The notes under the pieces were generated by a model. That model was given only the letters and a program-made list of their open reading frames with translations. It was not told where the DNA came from and ran no database searches. Positions 1,087 through 24,491 of a DNA stretch of 64,000 bases are shown piece by piece; the stretch's first letter is position 1; the number at the start of each line of letters is the position of its first letter. A program made the translations under genes and the position numbers. Source of the stretch: Acidimicrobiales bacterium (GTDB taxonomy: Bacteria > Actinomycetota > Acidimicrobiia > Acidimicrobiales > MedAcidi-G1); NCBI GenBank assembly GCA_022452035.1, contig JAKURV010000012.1, positions 1 through 64,000 of the forward strand, written 5' to 3'.

Positions 1087-2925
1087 CTAGCGCTCGCCCA
1101 GCCCGGTGCGCCGCTCGAGGCGCTGGCTGGCCTTGGACATCTGGTAACAGAAGATCCAGTAGATCACGGACACGAAGAGGACGTTCTCCCTGGTGCTGCC
1201 CATGAACTCTGTCTGGCCGGGAATCACGATCCGGCCGATGTAGAGAATGTCGAACACCCCGATGATGGCCAGCAGCGAGGTCTCCTTGAACACCCCGATG
1301 CAGTGCCCCACCAACGGTGGGATGGAAACTCGTAATGCCTGAGGTAGGACGATGAAGATCGTCTTTTGAGCGGTGGTCATGCCGACTGCCTCGGCTGCCT
1401 CGTGCTGTCCCCGGGTTATCGACTGCAGGCCACCCCGTACGTTCTCGGCCAGGTAGGCCGATGAGAACAGGATGTAGCCGATGATGCAGGCGGTGACTTC
1501 GCTTAGGTGCATCCCCCTGGGAAGGAAGAGCGGCACCATGATCGAGAAGAAGATCAGGATCGTGATCAGCGGTACGCCCCGCACAACCTCGATGAACCCG
1601 GTCGCCAACTGCCGGAAGATGGGCATGCTCGACGTGCGAGCCAGGGCCAGGGCAATTCCCAGGGGGAACGAGAACACGATGGTGAAGATGGCAAACATCA
1701 GGGTGATCGAGAAACCACCGATGAAGAAGCCCCCTGGGACCGTGACGGTCGAGGGGGTGTTGACAGCTGTGATCAGCCACGACATCACACCCAGTACGCC
1801 CAACCAGCCGAAGATGTAGCGCCTCCGGGCCCGGGGTCCGCCGCCGAAAGTCGGTGCGGCCAGGGCAAAGACGGCCAGCAAGAGCATGTCGAGTCGCACG
1901 ACCTGTCGCATCGGTGTCAGGAACGTACAGAAGCCGACCACCAGGATCAGCACGGCGACGATTCGACCGGTCTCGCCTGTCGACGGGCGGGTGAGCCACG
2001 AGAGCAGAGCAGCTCCGCCGACTGCGTAGGCGGCGAAGATCGGCAGGTCGGTGCCGACCACGTGGCCCATATCGAAAGACGGGTCCCGCAGCACCAGGTA
2101 GATGAGCACGAGCGGCGCTAGGAGCCACAGCACCAGGAGGGTGACCCGGGTCGGATTGATCGGCAGGCGATCCCGCATCAGGCGTCCCGCGAAGTACGCC
2201 GCCACGACGACGAGCAGCATGATCGTCCACGGCAACTTGGTGGTCAGCGCCACCGTGCCCGGTTCGGCCAACACCCTCGGTACGCGCTTCGCGATGTAGG
2301 TGTGGTGGCCGTAGGGGACCACCCACAACGAGGCCACCAGCCCGGCCAGGGTGACCACCAACACCGTCAGCGAACTGACCGTTCGTTCGTCTTCGCCTCT
2401 GCCGGCGAAGCGACGGATGGCCTCGCCGACGGCAGCCACGGCCAGCGCGGCGGCCAGCCACTGGACGGTGGCCGAGGCGCTGAACGGAGCGAGAAGGGCA
2501 AGGAGGGCGAGGAGGGCGCCGGTGGCCAGGAGCTTGCGTCCGAGCCCCGCTACCGGCACCGTCGAGCCGGCCCGCCATACAGCCATCGACATGCCGGTGA
2601 GGATCAGGATGACAGCGACGCAGAACCAGACTCGGATGTACTGCTCATCGGGGTAGGCCCGGGTCATGAACAGCTGCATGTTGGTGGCCGTGCCGTCCCA
2701 CTGGCGGACCGGATTGAAGATGAACGACAGGAAGCCCCGGAAGACAGCCAACAGGATGATCGTGGTGACGACGGTCAGCACAGAGTTGAAGGGGCTCGAG
2801 AAGAGGTTCTCCTTCACCCACTCACGCGGCGCCAATTTCGGGATTTCGGGCGGCGCGGACAGAGGCGCATGTGCCGTCGCTGCGACCATGGAAGGTGTCG
2901 AGACATGACTCGAAATTTCCGACAT
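1087..2925 (-). CDS. aapM: Amino-acid ABC transporter permease (AapM-like, oversized)
   Basis: Membrane permease of 612 residues. The C-terminal half carries the HisMQ-type permease domain with the EAA loop (EAAEAVGMTTAQ, then VLPQALR) near residue 500. The first ~380 residues hold many hydrophobic segments, far more than the roughly 400-residue AapM of proteobacteria. Its ATG directly follows the TAG of aapQ with no gap, so the two are probably translationally coupled. It should pair with AapQ and AapP to import amino acids bound by the lipoprotein AapJ. The N-terminal expansion is the odd point and may be a lineage-specific membrane domain. Confidence 0.88.
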   Translation of the reverse strand: MSEISSHVSTPSMVAATAHAPLSAPPEIPKLAPREWVKENLFSSPFNSVLTVVTTIILLAVFRGFLSFIFNPVRQWDGTATNMQLFMTRAYPDEQYIRVWFCVAVILILTGMSMAVWRAGSTVPVAGLGRKLLATGALLALLALLAPFSASATVQWLAAALAVAAVGEAIRRFAGRGEDERTVSSLTVLVVTLAGLVASLWVVPYGHHTYIAKRVPRVLAEPGTVALTTKLPWTIMLLVVVAAYFAGRLMRDRLPINPTRVTLLVLWLLAPLVLIYLVLRDPSFDMGHVVGTDLPIFAAYAVGGAALLSWLTRPSTGETGRIVAVLILVVGFCTFLTPMRQVVRLDMLLLAVFALAAPTFGGGPRARRRYIFGWLGVLGVMSWLITAVNTPSTVTVPGGFFIGGFSITLMFAIFTIVFSFPLGIALALARTSSMPIFRQLATGFIEVVRGVPLITILIFFSIMVPLFLPRGMHLSEVTACIIGYILFSSAYLAENVRGGLQSITRGQHEAAEAVGMTTAQKTIFIVLPQALRVSIPPLVGHCIGVFKETSLLAIIGVFDILYIGRIVIPGQTEFMGSTRENVLFVSVIYWIFCYQMSKASQRLERRTGLGER

Positions 2926-4452
2926 CTACCGCTCCACCAGTTTCATTCGGACGTTGAACCAGTTGACGACCACCGAGATGGTCAGCGAACAGCTCAGGTA
3001 GAAGAGCATCCAGATGGCCACCACGGGCAGCGTCCTGCCGGTCTGGTTGAACACCGTGGTGCCGACCTGGACCATGTCGCTCATGCCGACGGCGACGGCC
3101 AGCGAGGTGTTCTTGGTCAGGTTCAGGTACTGGTTGCCGGTCGGGGGCAGGATGACCCGGAGGGCCTGGGGGAGCACCACGTGGCGGAGGATCTGTCCGC
3201 GGCGGAGGCCGACGGCCTTGGCCGCCTCGGTTTGGCCCTTGGGTACGGCCAGGATGCCGCCTCGGACGTTTTCGCCGATGAAGGCAGACGTGTAGAACAC
3301 GACAGCGAAGAACACCGAGGCGAAGCCGATCGACATGGTCAGACCGTTTTTCCCGTAGTTCGGGAACTTGCCCTTCTGGACGATGTCGGGGCGCATGGCG
3401 TCGAATGGGCGGGCTGCACCGTCGACGTTGAACTTGTCAGCCATAACTTCGAACAGGTCGCGGCCGCTGTTGAGGGTCCACGCCGAAAGGCCGGACCAGC
3501 GGATCACCAGGAAGACGACGGCCAGTGAGGCCACGGCGGTAAAGGCAATCCGGAACCAGTCGTCGTCGGTGAGCGACAGGTGTCCGCGGGCACTGCGGTG
3601 ATCGGAAACGAAACGGCGGATCCAAACGGTGGCTCCGCCGACAGCGATGGCGGAGAACAGCAGTTGTGGGAAAGCGTTGGGAAGCGAGTCGAGTAGGTCG
3701 GCGACAGCGCTGAAAACGGAGCCCAGCCAGGAGAACGCAGGGTGGACGAACAGGCCGATCAGCCCGAACAGGCCGATCGTTCCGAGCGCCCACAGGATCG
3801 GCGAGGCGTTGGCACCGGTTTCGTCCTGGATCCGTTGACGGTGACGACGGACGAGGTGAGCGGCCGCTGCACCAATGAGCACGACGACCGCCCACTGGTA
3901 GAAACCATCGGCGATGTGGACGCGGGGCATCGAGATGCCCTTGTTGGAGACGTGGAGCCAGCCGTTGATGGGGCCGGTTTCGTGGCCGAGCTTGGGAAAC
4001 GCGGCTGTCATAGCTGAGTAGTAGAGGATCATCTGCACCAGCAGCGGAATGTTCCGCAAAACCTCGACCCACCCGGAGGCGATGCGGCGGACCAGCCAGT
4101 TGTCAGACAGGCGGGCCAGGCCGACGATCACGCCCAGGATCGTGGCAAAGAAAATGCCGGCAATGGACAGACGCAGGGTGTTGACCATGGCGGCCCAGAG
4201 GGCCCGTCCACCGGTGTTGGGGTGGGTGTCGATTCCCTCACTGATCTGAATGTCGACGGGGCGTTCAAGGAAGTCGAAGTCGGTGTTGATGTTCCGTGCC
4301 CGAAGGTTGTCCCCGGCCTGATTAGCCAGGAACCACATGGCGCTGAGCACCACGAACAGCAGGAAAACCTGTGTCACCCACTTGAGGACGATGACGTCGC
4401 GCCACAGCGGTACTCGCTGGGATACCCGCTCTTGGGTGGTGGTATCCGTCAT
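2926..4452 (-). CDS. aapQ: Amino-acid ABC transporter permease (AapQ-like)
   Basis: This 508-residue permease has a first transmembrane helix near residues 30-45, a periplasmic stretch, then HisMQ permease helices interrupted by a ~150-residue hydrophobic insertion. The EAA loop (EAAKAVGLRRGQ followed by VLPQALRVILPP) lies near residue 420. It is longer than the usual ~400 residues for AapQ. It is separated from aapJ by 172 bp containing a strong stem-loop at 4561-4600, which may set a lower level of permease than binding protein. Function as the partner of AapM is known for the family; amino-acid specificity is not shown by sequence. Confidence 0.88.
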   Translation of the reverse strand: MTDTTTQERVSQRVPLWRDVIVLKWVTQVFLLFVVLSAMWFLANQAGDNLRARNINTDFDFLERPVDIQISEGIDTHPNTGGRALWAAMVNTLRLSIAGIFFATILGVIVGLARLSDNWLVRRIASGWVEVLRNIPLLVQMILYYSAMTAAFPKLGHETGPINGWLHVSNKGISMPRVHIADGFYQWAVVVLIGAAAAHLVRRHRQRIQDETGANASPILWALGTIGLFGLIGLFVHPAFSWLGSVFSAVADLLDSLPNAFPQLLFSAIAVGGATVWIRRFVSDHRSARGHLSLTDDDWFRIAFTAVASLAVVFLVIRWSGLSAWTLNSGRDLFEVMADKFNVDGAARPFDAMRPDIVQKGKFPNYGKNGLTMSIGFASVFFAVVFYTSAFIGENVRGGILAVPKGQTEAAKAVGLRRGQILRHVVLPQALRVILPPTGNQYLNLTKNTSLAVAVGMSDMVQVGTTVFNQTGRTLPVVAIWMLFYLSCSLTISVVVNWFNVRMKLVER

Positions 4453-4624: not shown

Positions 4625-5722
4625 TTAGCGGGCCGGCGGGGAGTAGATCAGGCCCCCGTCCAACCATCCGGCGTTGGCGCTGCCCTCGCGGTACAGGCCG
4701 ACCGGGTTCAGGTTGCGGTCGTAGACCTCGCCGTAGCTTCCGACCTGCTTGATCACCTGGTGGAAGGCGTCGGCGGCCAGACCCATACCGGTCTGGAGTT
4801 CACCATCGCCGCCGCACAGGCGTGAGACCTCGGCCTCGGCCTCGGCGCACGTGGCATCCACGTTGGCGGAGGTGACGCCGTACTCGTCCATGATGATCAT
4901 GGCGTACACGGTCCAGTTGACGGCATCGGCCCAGGCCGAGTCGTTCTGGCCGTACGTCGGGCCGAGCGGCTCCTTGGAGATCGGAGTAGCCGGGAAGATC
5001 ACCCACTCCTGATCGGCGGGCATCTGCTTGGCCTTACGGCCCACGAGTGCCGAACCATCGGTGGTGGTGATGTCACAGCCACCGGCGATGAAGGTCTCGT
5101 AAACCTCGTCGCTCGTCTCGAAGCCGAGCAGCGTGATATCGGCACCGGCCAACAGGGCGGCCTCGGCGATGTTCTTCTCCGTGGTCGTTCCGACGTTGGT
5201 GCACACTATGGAACCGTCGATGTCGGCGACCTGGCTGGATCCCGAGAAGCCATCGCTGACTCGGGCCATCAACTGCTGGCCGTCGTAGTAGGTGGTGGGA
5301 CCGAAGTCCATGCCCACCGAGCTGTCACGGCTCTGGGTCCATGTGGTGTTACGCATGAGCACGTCCACGTCGCCGGTCTGAACAGCGGTGAAGCGCTCCG
5401 AGGCCGTCAGAGCCACGAAGTTCACGGCTCCAGCGTCGCCAAGGACGGCGGCAGCTACTGCCCGACAGAAGTCGGCGTCAATACCGGTTACCGAGCCATC
5501 AGCCTGGGTTTCGGAGAACGCCACGGCCGAGCCGCTGACTCCGCAGTTCAGGGTGCCACGGGCCTGGACGGCGTCCAGGAGACTGCCGGACGCGACAACT
5601 TCGACCTCTGCGGCCGTAGTGGCCGGTGCAGCTGGTGCGTCGTCGCTGTCGCTACCGCAGGCTGCGGCGACGACACCGATGGTCAGGAATAGGGCGAGAA
5701 GCCTGAGAAGCTTGCTCTTCAT
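4625..5722 (-). CDS. aapJ: Amino-acid ABC transporter substrate-binding lipoprotein (AapJ-like)
   Basis: This 365-residue extracytoplasmic solute-binding protein family 3 member begins with a lipoprotein signal whose lipobox ends VAAAC at Cys22, then a Ser/Asp/Ala/Thr linker. The mature part starts with the AapJ-typical VQARGTLNCGVSG and includes GIDADFCRAVAAAVLGD. A strong Shine-Dalgarno (GGAGGGGG) lies 8 bases before the ATG. It is the first gene of the transporter operon and should deliver amino acids to AapQM. The upstream 250 bp contain tandem direct repeats (5837-5883) that may control it. Confidence 0.93.
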   Translation of the reverse strand: MKSKLLRLLALFLTIGVVAAACGSDSDDAPAAPATTAAEVEVVASGSLLDAVQARGTLNCGVSGSAVAFSETQADGSVTGIDADFCRAVAAAVLGDAGAVNFVALTASERFTAVQTGDVDVLMRNTTWTQSRDSSVGMDFGPTTYYDGQQLMARVSDGFSGSSQVADIDGSIVCTNVGTTTEKNIAEAALLAGADITLLGFETSDEVYETFIAGGCDITTTDGSALVGRKAKQMPADQEWVIFPATPISKEPLGPTYGQNDSAWADAVNWTVYAMIIMDEYGVTSANVDATCAEAEAEVSRLCGGDGELQTGMGLAADAFHQVIKQVGSYGEVYDRNLNPVGLYREGSANAGWLDGGLIYSPPAR

Positions 5723-21025: not shown

Positions 21026-21517
21026 TCAGCCCAGCGCCGCCGTCCCGGCGTAGGGAGCCGGGTCGCCGGCGGCCGGGATTTCCGGACGCGACCATCGGGT
21101 CATATCAGCCAGGCTGGTTGCCGCCTCACGCCAGGCGAGCGGATCCCAACCTTCGGCGGAACCGATGACCGAACCGTCCTGGCGGATAGCCACGAAGGCG
21201 GGAAGGATGGCCAGCTCCATGGAGCGGGCCAGGGACCGGTCGGGATCGGCCAGGGTCAGAATCTCGTCTGTGAGCGGTCCGAGGAAGCGGGAAGCGCCGT
21301 CGCTGTCGGTTCCAGCCACCACAAAGGCCACCCGCACGTCGGCTTCCCGAAACACGGTCAGGATGCGCCGGGCGGTGTCTAACAGCCACGAACTCTCGTG
21401 GGTGAACGGATCCACGATCACGGCGGCCAACGGAAAAGTGGTCAGCAACTCCGACAGGTGCCGAGGCTCGTCTCCCACCGCCTGCAACTGGATAGAGAGG
21501 TCCGGTGCGTTGGCCAC
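21026..21517 (-). CDS. Cysteine-free thioredoxin/peroxiredoxin-fold protein
   Basis: A 163-residue protein whose layout follows a thioredoxin fold: VIVDPFTHESSWLLDTA at the usual active-site position and a cis-Pro loop, LPAFVAIRQDGSVIGS, near residue 115. No cysteine is present at all, so it cannot do thiol chemistry itself and may be structural, a binding protein or a degenerate redoxin. The GTG at 21517 starts the conserved block. It is divergent from mutY with only 88 bp between the starts, and 82 bp upstream of the 2-hydroxyacid dehydrogenase gene. Confidence 0.6.
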   Translation of the reverse strand: MANAPDLSIQLQAVGDEPRHLSELLTTFPLAAVIVDPFTHESSWLLDTARRILTVFREADVRVAFVVAGTDSDGASRFLGPLTDEILTLADPDRSLARSMELAILPAFVAIRQDGSVIGSAEGWDPLAWREAATSLADMTRWSRPEIPAAGDPAPYAGTAALG

Positions 21518-21605
21518 GGGCGCCGACGCTAGCGCGGGGCTAGGCGGACCGGCGGGACGACGGGAGCGTTCGGAGGTGGCCACTACGGTCCAGGAGGTGG
21601 CAGCC

Positions 21606-22493
21606 GTGGACACGACCATCGGCCAGCGGATACTGCCCGCTGACCTCCTCCGCTGGGGGTCTCAGAACCGTCGGAACCTGCCGTGGCGCGACAGCCGCGA
21701 CCCTTGGGCCGTACTGGTGGCCGAGGTGATGCTCCAGCAAACCCGGGTGGACCGGGTGGTGGAACGGTGGCCGCGCTTTTTGATCCGGTTCCCGAACGTG
21801 GCGTCCTGTGCCTCGGTCCCGCCGGCCGAGGTGATCGCCGAGTGGTCAGGACTCGGCTACAACCGGCGAGCCGTTTACCTCCACAGGGCAGCCGGAGTCG
21901 TGATGGCTCGACACGGTGGCCAGATTCCGACCGAACGGGCCGAGTTGGAGGCTCTCCCGGGTATCGGCCCCTACACAGCGCGGGCCGTCCGGGCCTTCGC
22001 CCACGAGGTCGAAGCGGCCGTGGTGGACACCAACGTGGCCCGGATCCTGGCCCGGTGGACCGGCCGGCGCCTCACGGCTCGGGAGGCCCAGAACCTGGCT
22101 GACCAATCGGTCCCCTCGGGGCGGGTTTGGTCCTGGAACCAGACCCTGCTGGACCTAGGCGCTCTGACCTGCACGGCACGGGTCCCGGATTGCAAACGCT
22201 GTCCGCTGGCCGACCGGTGTGCCTGGCGGGGCGAGGGTTCCGATCCGGCTCGCGGTTCCGCCGGGGTGTCAGGTGGCCAGACCCCATTTGAGGGATCGGA
22301 CCGCCAGGGTCGAGGTCGGTTGGTCGCCGCCCTAGGTGGGGGCCCGGTGGCCGACGGGAGGCTGGCCGATGTCATGGGCTGGCCAGAGGATGCCGACCGG
22401 GCCCGCCGGGTCGTCGGGACGCTGGTAGCCGACGGCCTCGTGGTGGTCTGCGCCAGCGGTTACGCGCTTCCCGGATGGGAATCGGGTACCTGA
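21606..22493 (+). CDS. mutY: A/G-specific adenine DNA glycosylase MutY
   Basis: A 295-residue base-excision repair enzyme removing adenine opposite 8-oxoguanine. Features: the catalytic Glu region AEVMLQQTRV near residue 40, helix-hairpin-helix LPGIGPYTARAV near 120, the catalytic Asp in VVDTNVARIL, and the 4Fe-4S cluster cysteines with C-x6-C-x2-C-x5-C spacing (CTARVPDCKRCPLADRC). The Nudix-like C-terminal domain is missing, as in some short actinobacterial forms. The GTG at 21606 has AGGAGG 8 bases upstream; a GTG 9 bases earlier is too close to that site. Confidence 0.92.
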   Translation: MDTTIGQRILPADLLRWGSQNRRNLPWRDSRDPWAVLVAEVMLQQTRVDRVVERWPRFLIRFPNVASCASVPPAEVIAEWSGLGYNRRAVYLHRAAGVVMARHGGQIPTERAELEALPGIGPYTARAVRAFAHEVEAAVVDTNVARILARWTGRRLTAREAQNLADQSVPSGRVWSWNQTLLDLGALTCTARVPDCKRCPLADRCAWRGEGSDPARGSAGVSGGQTPFEGSDRQGRGRLVAALGGGPVADGRLADVMGWPEDADRARRVVGTLVADGLVVVCASGYALPGWESGT

Positions 22494-22518: not shown

Positions 22519-23043
22519 TCAGGCCGCCGTCAGGGCCGACACCAGCGCCTCGACGGCCCCGTCGGCCAGGTCCTGCATCTCCTGGTCGGTCCGGTCCTGG
22601 ATGGGGTGCGCCGTGAACACACGGGCCACATCCAACCCGAGTGCCCGGGCCTGTTCCTCGGCGGCTTCGGCAAACGGCTCTGAGGCCACCACCACACCTG
22701 GTAGGCCACGGCGTTCCAGGTCGTCGATGTCGTGCACACTGCACGTCGTGCAGGATCCTCAATCGGCGAGAGCTTCGATGACCGCCGCACACTGGGTGGC
22801 GATCTCGTGGCGCAGGTCGACAGGGGCCGGCTTGGTGAACGTTGGCTTGGCGTAGCGCAGGACGGTGGCGCCCTGCTCGCCCAGGCGCTCGGCCACCCGG
22901 TCCAGGAAGACGTCGCCCCGCGGCTTGCTGATGTCCAGCAGGCCCACCGTCACACCGACCAGGGAGGTGAGGCGGGGGCTGCGGGTTCGATCCGATGGGG
23001 TCGTGCCGGCGGTCGGATCCAGGACGACGGTCGGCTGACTCAC
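22519..23043 (-). CDS. UGSC-family selenoprotein with in-frame UGA
   Basis: The frame from GTG 23043 runs 94 codons to a TGA at 22761-22759 and then continues 79 codons to a true stop. Read as Sec, the join gives ALAD-U-G-S-C-TTCSVHDIDDLER, the hallmark of the UGSC family, and the two halves match the family's layout: GVTVGLLDISKPRGDVFLDRVAERL and FTKPAPVDLR before the motif, then GLPGVVVASEPFAEAAEEQARALG and FTAHPIQDRTDQEM after it. Total 174 residues. The family has unknown function; relatives with Cys at this site are known. Its GTG overlaps the upstream gene's TGA by 4 bases. A hairpin 19 nt after the UGA is a good SECIS candidate. Confidence 0.9.
22731..22745 (-). promoter_or_regulatory. 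Candidate SECIS hairpin of the UGSC gene
   Basis: CGTGCA pairs perfectly with TGCACG around a GTG loop whose first base is 20 nt after the UGA. The loop sequence is identical to that of the SelW-like gene's hairpin. A competing CTGCAC/GTGCAG fold is closer to the UGA (11 nt) and less suitable. Confidence 0.65.
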
Positions 23044-24491
23044 GGTGTGATCTCCCTACTTGTCGGCTCGCTGCCCATCGGGCCGTTCACCCAGCCTCCC
23101 ACAATGGCCGAGAACAAGCCGGCTGGACCACCGGCATGGACGACCAGCAGGCCGCCCGGGCGAAACTTGGGGAGAGTCGTACCGGCAAACCCCTCGGGGA
23201 GCCCTTCCTCGATCCCGCCCGCTCCGGCCAGGATTTCGTCGGCTTCGACTGTCAGGTGGCCGGCCAACTCGGACATGAACCGGTTCCGGTCCCAACCGGC
23301 GTCCCGGAACCGGGACATGTGTTCCGGGGAGAGCACCAGCATCCCGTCCATGCCCATCACCACCCGGGGCGAGACGGTTGCTCGCAGGCCCTCGGCCAGC
23401 GCCCGGACCAGAGAATCGGCCGACCGACTCTTCTGGTCGACCAGGATCCGGGGTGCCTCGCCGCAGAAGGCCGTCACCACGTCCTGGGACCGGTCAAAGC
23501 CACGATCCTCGGACAAGGTGGTCCACGGACTGCCCGCCTCGTCCTCGGCGAAGCAGAACCCCAACTTGGCCATACTGCCGTGGGTGGCCCGGTCGATGCC
23601 GCCGGGCGCCCCGCCGCCGACGTTGCGGACCACCAACTGAACGGCCCGCCCGATGGTGGCGTTGGCACGGTTCCCCTGGCCGAGGGCATTCACGCCGCTG
23701 TTCATCCCGATTCGCGATGACACCGGGCCGTTGACCACCAGGACGGGCCCAACGCCCATCGTGGTGGCCAGGATTCCGTGCATGTTGAACTCGTCGGTAC
23801 AGACGGCCTCCAGGGCGGCTAGCACCACAGGGAGGTACTCGGGCAGGCAGCCGGCCATCACGGCGTTCACGGCCACCTTCTCCACCGTGCACTCCACGAG
23901 GGCAGGGGGCATGACCGCTACCACCTCGTCGGCCGCCCGAGTCGTTCCGTCCAGCATCCGGGCCACCCGGGCTTCGGTCGGAGGAACAACGGGTAGCCCG
24001 TCGGTCCACCCCCGGTCAAAGAGGGCCTCGGCGTCGTCCTCGCCGGATCCCAGTTCAACTCGACGAGAGGCTAGGCCCGTGTCGTTGAACCGGAGCCGGA
24101 GTTCGTCGATCCGCCCGGGATCGACCGTCAGGGACCCTCAGCCGGGCTTGAAGGCCGGCAGGTCAGGCCCAAGATCGACCACCCCCGTCAGCTGCTCCCA
24201 CCGGTCTCGGTCCCATCCCGTTGTTCGCTCGACCTCCCGGCCAGCCTCGATTCGCAGCAGGGTGGGCACGGCCTCCAGATCCAGATGCCAACTGATGGCC
24301 AGGTCGGTGTCGTCCACGACCCAGTCGGCCACCGCTGGGAAGGTCGCGTCGTCCTGGGTGTAGGCAGTCAACCCGGCTCGTTCGGACAGATCGGCCAGCA
24401 CCGGCGCGACTAGCGCGCAAGCCGGGCATTCTGCCTTAACGACGGCCACTAGGCCGTCTGACAGGCCGGCGGACCCGACATCTGCAACCAC
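23040..24491 (-). CDS. Thioredoxin-like / UGSC-associated fusion selenoprotein with in-frame UGA
   Basis: Two open segments, a 117-codon thioredoxin-like part (GTG 24491) and a long downstream part, lie in one frame separated only by TGA at 24140-24138. Read through, they give a 483-residue protein with Sec118 in FKPG-U-GSLTVDP, where I recall Cys in homologues. The N-terminal domain has CPAC near residue 23 and a cis-Pro loop (AVPTLLRIE). The C-terminal domain has RGWTDGLPVVPPTEARV, CTVEKVAVNAVMAGCLPEYLPVV, MNSGVNALGQGNRANATIGRA and a final GGLLVVHAGGPAGLFSAIVGGWV. Its last codons overlap the UGSC gene. A hairpin 20 nt past the UGA supports Sec. Function unknown; a thiol/selenol redox enzyme is inferred. 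Confidence 0.82.
24105..24125 (-). promoter_or_regulatory. Candidate SECIS hairpin of the thioredoxin-like fusion gene
   Basis: GTCGATCC pairs perfectly with GGATCGAC around a CGGGC loop. The loop starts 21 nt after the UGA and has G at its second position, as expected for a bacterial SECIS. Confidence 0.65.

Follow-up and report, generated by a model that had tools for sequence, protein, structure and literature searches.

The window, by which we mean the whole stretch of 64,000 nucleotides of Acidimicrobiales DNA analysed here, carries on its minus strand two adjoining genes that each contain one in-frame UGA codon. The downstream gene (22519..23043) encodes a selenoprotein of the UGSC family, 174 residues long with predicted selenocysteine (Sec) at residue 95. 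It starts with GTG at 23043, stops with TGA at 22521-22519, and has a ribosome-binding-like GGGAG at 23056-23052, eight bases upstream of its start. The upstream gene, here called the partner (23040..24491), encodes 483 residues with predicted Sec at residue 118, and combines a thioredoxin-like N-terminal domain with an unclassified C-terminal domain. The stop codon of the partner and the start codon of UGSC overlap in a GTGA (23040..23043, minus strand), through which the two genes are likely to be translationally coupled. On the plus strand, a MutY-like gene with an HhH-GPD base-excision glycosylase domain (21165-22493) converges with UGSC.

The host genome comprises 2.18 Mb in 65 contigs and is 96% complete. 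It contains selA, selB, selC and selD, all four genes for which the initial annotation had proposed to look: a tRNA-Sec (selC) with the anticodon UCA, selB and selA adjoining each other, and selD on the minus strand of contig C16 (locus L175). The selD gene has a TGA of its own in AG-U-GCK, and the host SelD is itself a predicted selenoprotein.

The UGSC gene and its selenocysteine codon

The initial annotation had pointed out a TGA at 22759-22761 in a frame that otherwise runs for 174 codons, and had read it as Sec to restore the motif ALAD-U-G-S-C. All of this was confirmed. The frame is real and lies on the minus strand, a detail left unstated at that time; the UGA is codon 95, in the context ALAD-U-GSCTTC, and ALADUGSC corresponds to residues 91-98. 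The suggestion that both halves fit the family also holds for the full translation, which is matched from end to end by PF24696 (E 2.7e-41, 142 bits against a cut-off of 25) and by the NCBIfam model NF041046, UGSC_fam (E 7.3e-45, 152.6 bits against a cut-off of 125). At the position of the UGA, homologues align with exactly Sec or Cys: Sec in 118 distinct homologues and Cys in three, with TAG in the Geodermatophilaceae. The tetrad U/C-G-S-C is invariant among 48 UGSC homologues. UGSC is present in 138 of 395 genomes of the class, mostly with one internal TGA, and because this TGA is common to homologues across the class it is neither a sequencing error nor a chance stop. Furthermore, a second UGSC gene with a TGA is found on another contig of the host genome. 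The UGSC gene of the window is a new member of a known selenoprotein family.

The TAG codons occupy the Sec codon of UGSC in Blastococcus (L099) and Geodermatophilus (L129), at about 5662-5664 of each locus, and in both loci the upstream partner has Cys. These codons agree with the published tRNA-Sec of Geodermatophilaceae that reads UAG (PMC5330540).

A perfect 6-bp hairpin whose GTG loop begins 19 nt past the UGA, noted at the outset, was found as described (CGUGCA-GUG-UGCACG, 22731..22745, minus strand). It conforms to the published bacterial SECIS model, in which a loop of 3-9 nt lies 16-37 nt from the UGA and has G within its first two positions (PMC13188914). The hairpin occupies the same position in 118 distinct Sec-UGSC genes; the loop reads GUN in every one of them, and each of the six pairs forms in 108-118. 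Several pairs show two-sided changes, for example from G-C to A-U and from C-G to G-C. The 64 nt that follow the UGA fold with ordinary stability in both genes (z +1.24 for UGSC and +0.32 for the partner), so that energy alone is no evidence, and conservation and the comparison of Sec with Cys forms were relied on instead. The energy observed for the UGSC hairpin is reached by 2% of random synonymous recodings of the same peptide, and UGSC hairpins are backed by synonymous-codon shuffling (P 0.005-0.07).

The partner gene and its in-frame UGA

The in-frame UGA of the partner, directly upstream of UGSC, had been overlooked in the initial annotation. It is codon 118 (24138..24140, minus strand), in KPG-U-GSLTVDP, and is replaced by Cys in non-Sec homologues. 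Among 30 close homologues, the codon is Cys in the 20 that lie outside one family (f1) and TGA in the 10 that belong to it. The f1 partners with TGA span four genera at 68-82% identity, and the TGA is kept in every f1 genome in which the partner was found. On a broader scale, all 57 aligned rows have either Cys or Sec at this position of the PG-C/U-GS motif, and 12 of 106 distinct homologues have Sec. The tree of these 106 requires at least three changes between Sec and Cys: most Sec forms make up one actinobacterial clade, with the Cys form L146 nested inside it, and the Sec partner of a betaproteobacterium (L156) is placed among proteobacterial Cys forms. The reading frame is conserved without a break on both sides of the UGA.

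The partner UGA is followed by a SECIS-like hairpin of its own, GUCGAUCC-CGGGC-GGAUCGAC (24105..24125, minus strand), with a stem of 8 bp and a loop 20 nt past the UGA. On average, 7.4 of the 8 pairs form in Sec genes compared with 4.4 of 8 at the same place in 89 Cys genes, and the best SECIS-type hairpin has a median energy of -10.5 kcal/mol in Sec forms and -2.0 in Cys forms, a contrast that is inflated by kinship, as 10 of the 12 Sec partners come from one family or its nearest relatives and the points of this statistic are thus not independent. The loop CGGGC occurs in 11 of the 12 Sec genes and is not among the commonest Cys loops. Two Sec partners, L084 (with a stem-breaking mismatch) and L156, have weak hairpins. 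Synonymous-codon shuffling gives the partner hairpins marginal values (P 0.04-0.12, with no support for L084), since part of the signal lies in the choice of amino acids at these sites. The sequence comparisons predict the partner to be a second Sec-containing protein, with its own SECIS-like hairpin.

The N-terminal domain of the partner (residues 5-104; 24180..24479, minus strand) was assigned to the thioredoxin fold by predicted structure and profile match. The predicted structure aligns with thioredoxins at Z 9.4 (85 residues at 2.8 Å), the profile matches thioredoxin chains of the PDB with E 2e-4, and a CPAC motif lies at residues 22-25 (24428-24417). The remainder, from about residue 140 to 483 (~340 residues; 23043..24074, minus strand), is marked by the motifs DGLPVVPPT...FNMHG...GQGNRAN, and a domain of this type occurs alone beside the second UGSC copy. 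Structure searches with the whole partner were filled by thioredoxins. In Pfam and NCBIfam, no family matches the partner over its length and none matches the C-terminal domain; 57 partner homologues gave no match to a subunit of the GrdA, GrdE or PrdA type in these two collections. No direct homology between UGSC and the partner was found.

The partner motif is absent from all 119 prokaryotic selenoprotein families of the 2026 inventory (PMC13188914), and the partner probably represents a new selenoprotein family. Standard gene calling will truncate its Sec form at the UGA. The literature searched, whose coverage is incomplete so that an earlier mention may exist, yielded no description of the UGSC-partner pair. 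A domain named 'Unknown_1' and fused to UGSC appears in part of the 2008 report on the family (PMC2398784), and may or may not be this partner.

Conservation of the pair and its gene neighbourhoods

Across the 395 genomes of the class, partner and UGSC are both present in 132 and both absent from 251, with one alone in six and the other alone in six. Gene order was compared in a set of 80 loci, one genome per species, from at least eight phyla. In 71 of the 80, UGSC lies downstream of the partner on the same strand, at a distance of 18-286 nt. UGSC is divergent in three of the remaining loci, and in two of the other six a contig end lies no more than 200 nt from the partner. That the two genes are conserved as a unit, in at least eight phyla, is well supported. 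UGSC thereby gains a near-obligate partner, which itself has a Sec codon in a single lineage of actinobacteria and in one case outside it. Wherever the motif of a UGSC beside a thioredoxin-type partner is readable, it contains Sec or TAG. The same pair, with a Sec-UGSC and a Cys partner, also exists far from Actinomycetota, in the Chloroflexota loci L121, L126, L135, L143 and L153.

A second type of partner is about 340 residues long and lacks both the thioredoxin part and the PG-C/U-GS motif. The genome of the window has one such pair (L016, C9:39500-46000), in which UGSC, with its UGA, is located at about 2200-2800 and the partner at 2768-3802, both on the minus strand, followed by a short-chain dehydrogenase gene. 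In the loci examined, pairs of the second type adjoin genes for acyl-CoA dehydrogenases, short-chain dehydrogenases and a beta-keto acid cleavage enzyme, catabolic neighbours as expected of a metabolic enzyme. Among the loci read, UGSC proteins with Cys were seen only beside partners of this second type (L023, L025 and L037).

The neighbours of first-type pairs are mostly housekeeping genes, and no pathway could be named from them. Of the 80 loci, 14 have a MutY-like gene similar to that of the window next to the pair. Flavin reductase, MutY-like glycosylase, hexapeptide transferase and SufB genes were considered as clues to function and set aside, as they look clade-specific. Genes of the sel group adjoin the pair in several loci, with selA downstream in seven and a selB-like gene, so judged by its sequence, in seven.

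A proposed two-part reductase and its relation to known systems

A thioredoxin-like nature was suggested for UGSC in 2008 (PMC2398784). The predicted model of the window protein (pLDDT 88) instead has five beta-alpha repeats in a doubly wound alpha/beta arrangement, and Sec95 lies where the third strand ends and the third helix begins. The model is similar to flavodoxin or response-regulator folds (Z 9-11.6), and the matches listed include no thioredoxin; contrary to the 2008 suggestion, UGSC is predicted to have neither a thioredoxin nor a peroxiredoxin fold. The top match is a chain of the methyl-coenzyme M reductase activation complex (Z 11.6). Since many unrelated doubly wound proteins match at similar Z, no function was drawn from these matches. 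A search of the PDB with the UGSC profile found nothing.

The NCBIfam models for selenoprotein B of glycine and sarcosine reductases match 40 of 48 UGSC members (best 3.2e-6). In a profile-profile alignment (hhalign), UGSC and the Sec region of the GRDB-family proteins of the class align with E 5e-7 and a probability of 92%, Sec against Sec, over a similarity that spans only about 73 residues around Sec; the GIP and HP motifs of GRDB-family proteins are also aligned. UGSC of the window does not reach the GrdB family cut-off (13.5 bits against 602 in the test with PF07355/TIGR01917), and the family scan of UGSC relatives gave no match to PF07355. As judged by these profiles, the Sec region of UGSC is homologous to that of glycine reductase B. 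The initial annotation had called the reaction of the family unknown; the similarity to GrdB, which it had overlooked, bears on that reaction.

Proteins of the class that do resemble GRDB/PrdB (L157-L171) have an in-frame UGA just past the end of their PF07355 match, and automated annotation will truncate them there. Their Sec motifs read U-G-T-x-T-R-C or U-P-x-C.

Two UGAs at conserved Sec/Cys sites, the hairpins, the Sec machinery and the conserved pair together give sequence support for an operon of two selenoproteins. Our main reading, to which we assign a probability of about 58%, is that the products of this two-gene operon work as one enzyme, made up of a GrdB-like Sec reductase and a built-in thioredoxin. 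For the fuller proposal we see the odds as even: that UGSC and its partner form an unrecognised Se-dependent reductase complex in which a thioredoxin-Sec fusion recharges the GrdB-like Sec nucleophile, and that the partner represents a new family of selenoproteins, split in two at the UGA by annotation pipelines.

We infer the steps of the UGSC reaction from the established chemistry of glycine reductase. UGSC would be a free-standing protein related to the Sec domain of GrdB/PrdB, and its selenolate would attack an activated carbon of a small substrate to form a selenoether. Cys98 of the UxxC motif would resolve the selenoether, giving the reduced product and a Se-S bond. The active site may be built or shared by the C-terminal domain of the partner, and the Se-S bond would be reduced again by the thioredoxin domain (CPAC) through Cys/Sec118. 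In the second-type system, as its partner is without the thioredoxin part, electrons would come from a separate thioredoxin.

The main rival is a role in defence as a thiol peroxidase or disulfide reductase, in which UGSC would act as the reductant of peroxides or protein disulfides and be regenerated by the thioredoxin domain of the partner. The CxxC of that domain, the UxxC of UGSC and the predominance of redox proteins among marine selenoproteins (PMC2398784) are all consistent with such a role. We nevertheless regard it as unlikely, though worth keeping in sight: the fold predicted for UGSC is neither that of thioredoxin nor that of peroxiredoxin, its Sec region aligns with GrdB and not with peroxidases, second-type pairs stand in catabolic gene clusters, and simple peroxide reduction does not account for the C-terminal domain of the partner, which is large and conserved. 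It is improbable that the pair merely binds or traffics metal or selenium species, such as Se for delivery to SelD, and catalyses no reduction. The selA and selB-like genes beside the pair, in seven loci each, would suit this idea, but such proximity is also expected if the pair is the main Sec user; making Sec-UGSC already requires Sec, the second copies are found in catabolic clusters, at a distance from sel genes, and the relation to GrdB suggests catalysis. Least probable is that UGSC is the sole selenoprotein and UGA118 of the partner a true stop, so that the thioredoxin part is made as a free fragment and the C-terminal protein is started separately: a GTG-started ORF of 308 aa in frame past this UGA and the weak hairpins of some Sec partners would allow it, whereas the TGA persists across the four f1 genera (68-82% identity) with invariant Cys elsewhere, the flanking frame is uninterrupted, the hairpin occurs in Sec forms and is lacking from most Cys forms, and the same codon is TGA in a betaproteobacterium outside the main Sec clade.

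New for UGSC are the conserved partner, itself able to be a selenoprotein, the prediction of a fold other than that of thioredoxin, and a Sec region resembling that of GrdB. The proposed two-part reductase ties the UGSC active site to glycine reductase, an enzyme whose mechanism has been characterised, and replaces an 'unknown redox protein' by a two-subunit hypothesis that can be tested. If true, it would mean that a Se-dependent reductase complex occurs in many bacteria for which no glycine-reductase metabolism is known.

Compared with the known UGSC family (PF24696/NF041046, PMC2398784), the window gene shows no essential difference: it shares the whole-length match, Sec in U-G-S-C, the SECIS-like hairpin and an origin in aquatic bacteria. 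UGSC of the Geodermatophilaceae (PMC5330540) belongs to the same family, with the same Sec position and the same partner upstream, and differs in having UAG for UGA and Cys in the partner. The likeness of the partner to thioredoxin (PF00085) lies in its N-terminal domain, with the CPAC motif and Z 9.4; its Sec, however, is outside the CxxC, in the later PG-U-GS, and the domain is fused to an unclassified domain of 340 residues. With GrdB/PrdB (PF07355, TIGR01917, TIGR04483), UGSC shares Sec-G-S/T-x-T-x-C, followed by E-x-x-G-I/L-P and then H-P. GrdB differs in its large N-terminal part, which UGSC, with its 174 residues, does not have. Glycine and proline reductases also differ in their subunits, as the UGSC partner joins a thioredoxin to an unclassified domain and cannot be recognised as GrdA, GrdE or PrdA. 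As in grdA-grdB, a Sec protein is encoded beside a second selenoprotein in one operon.
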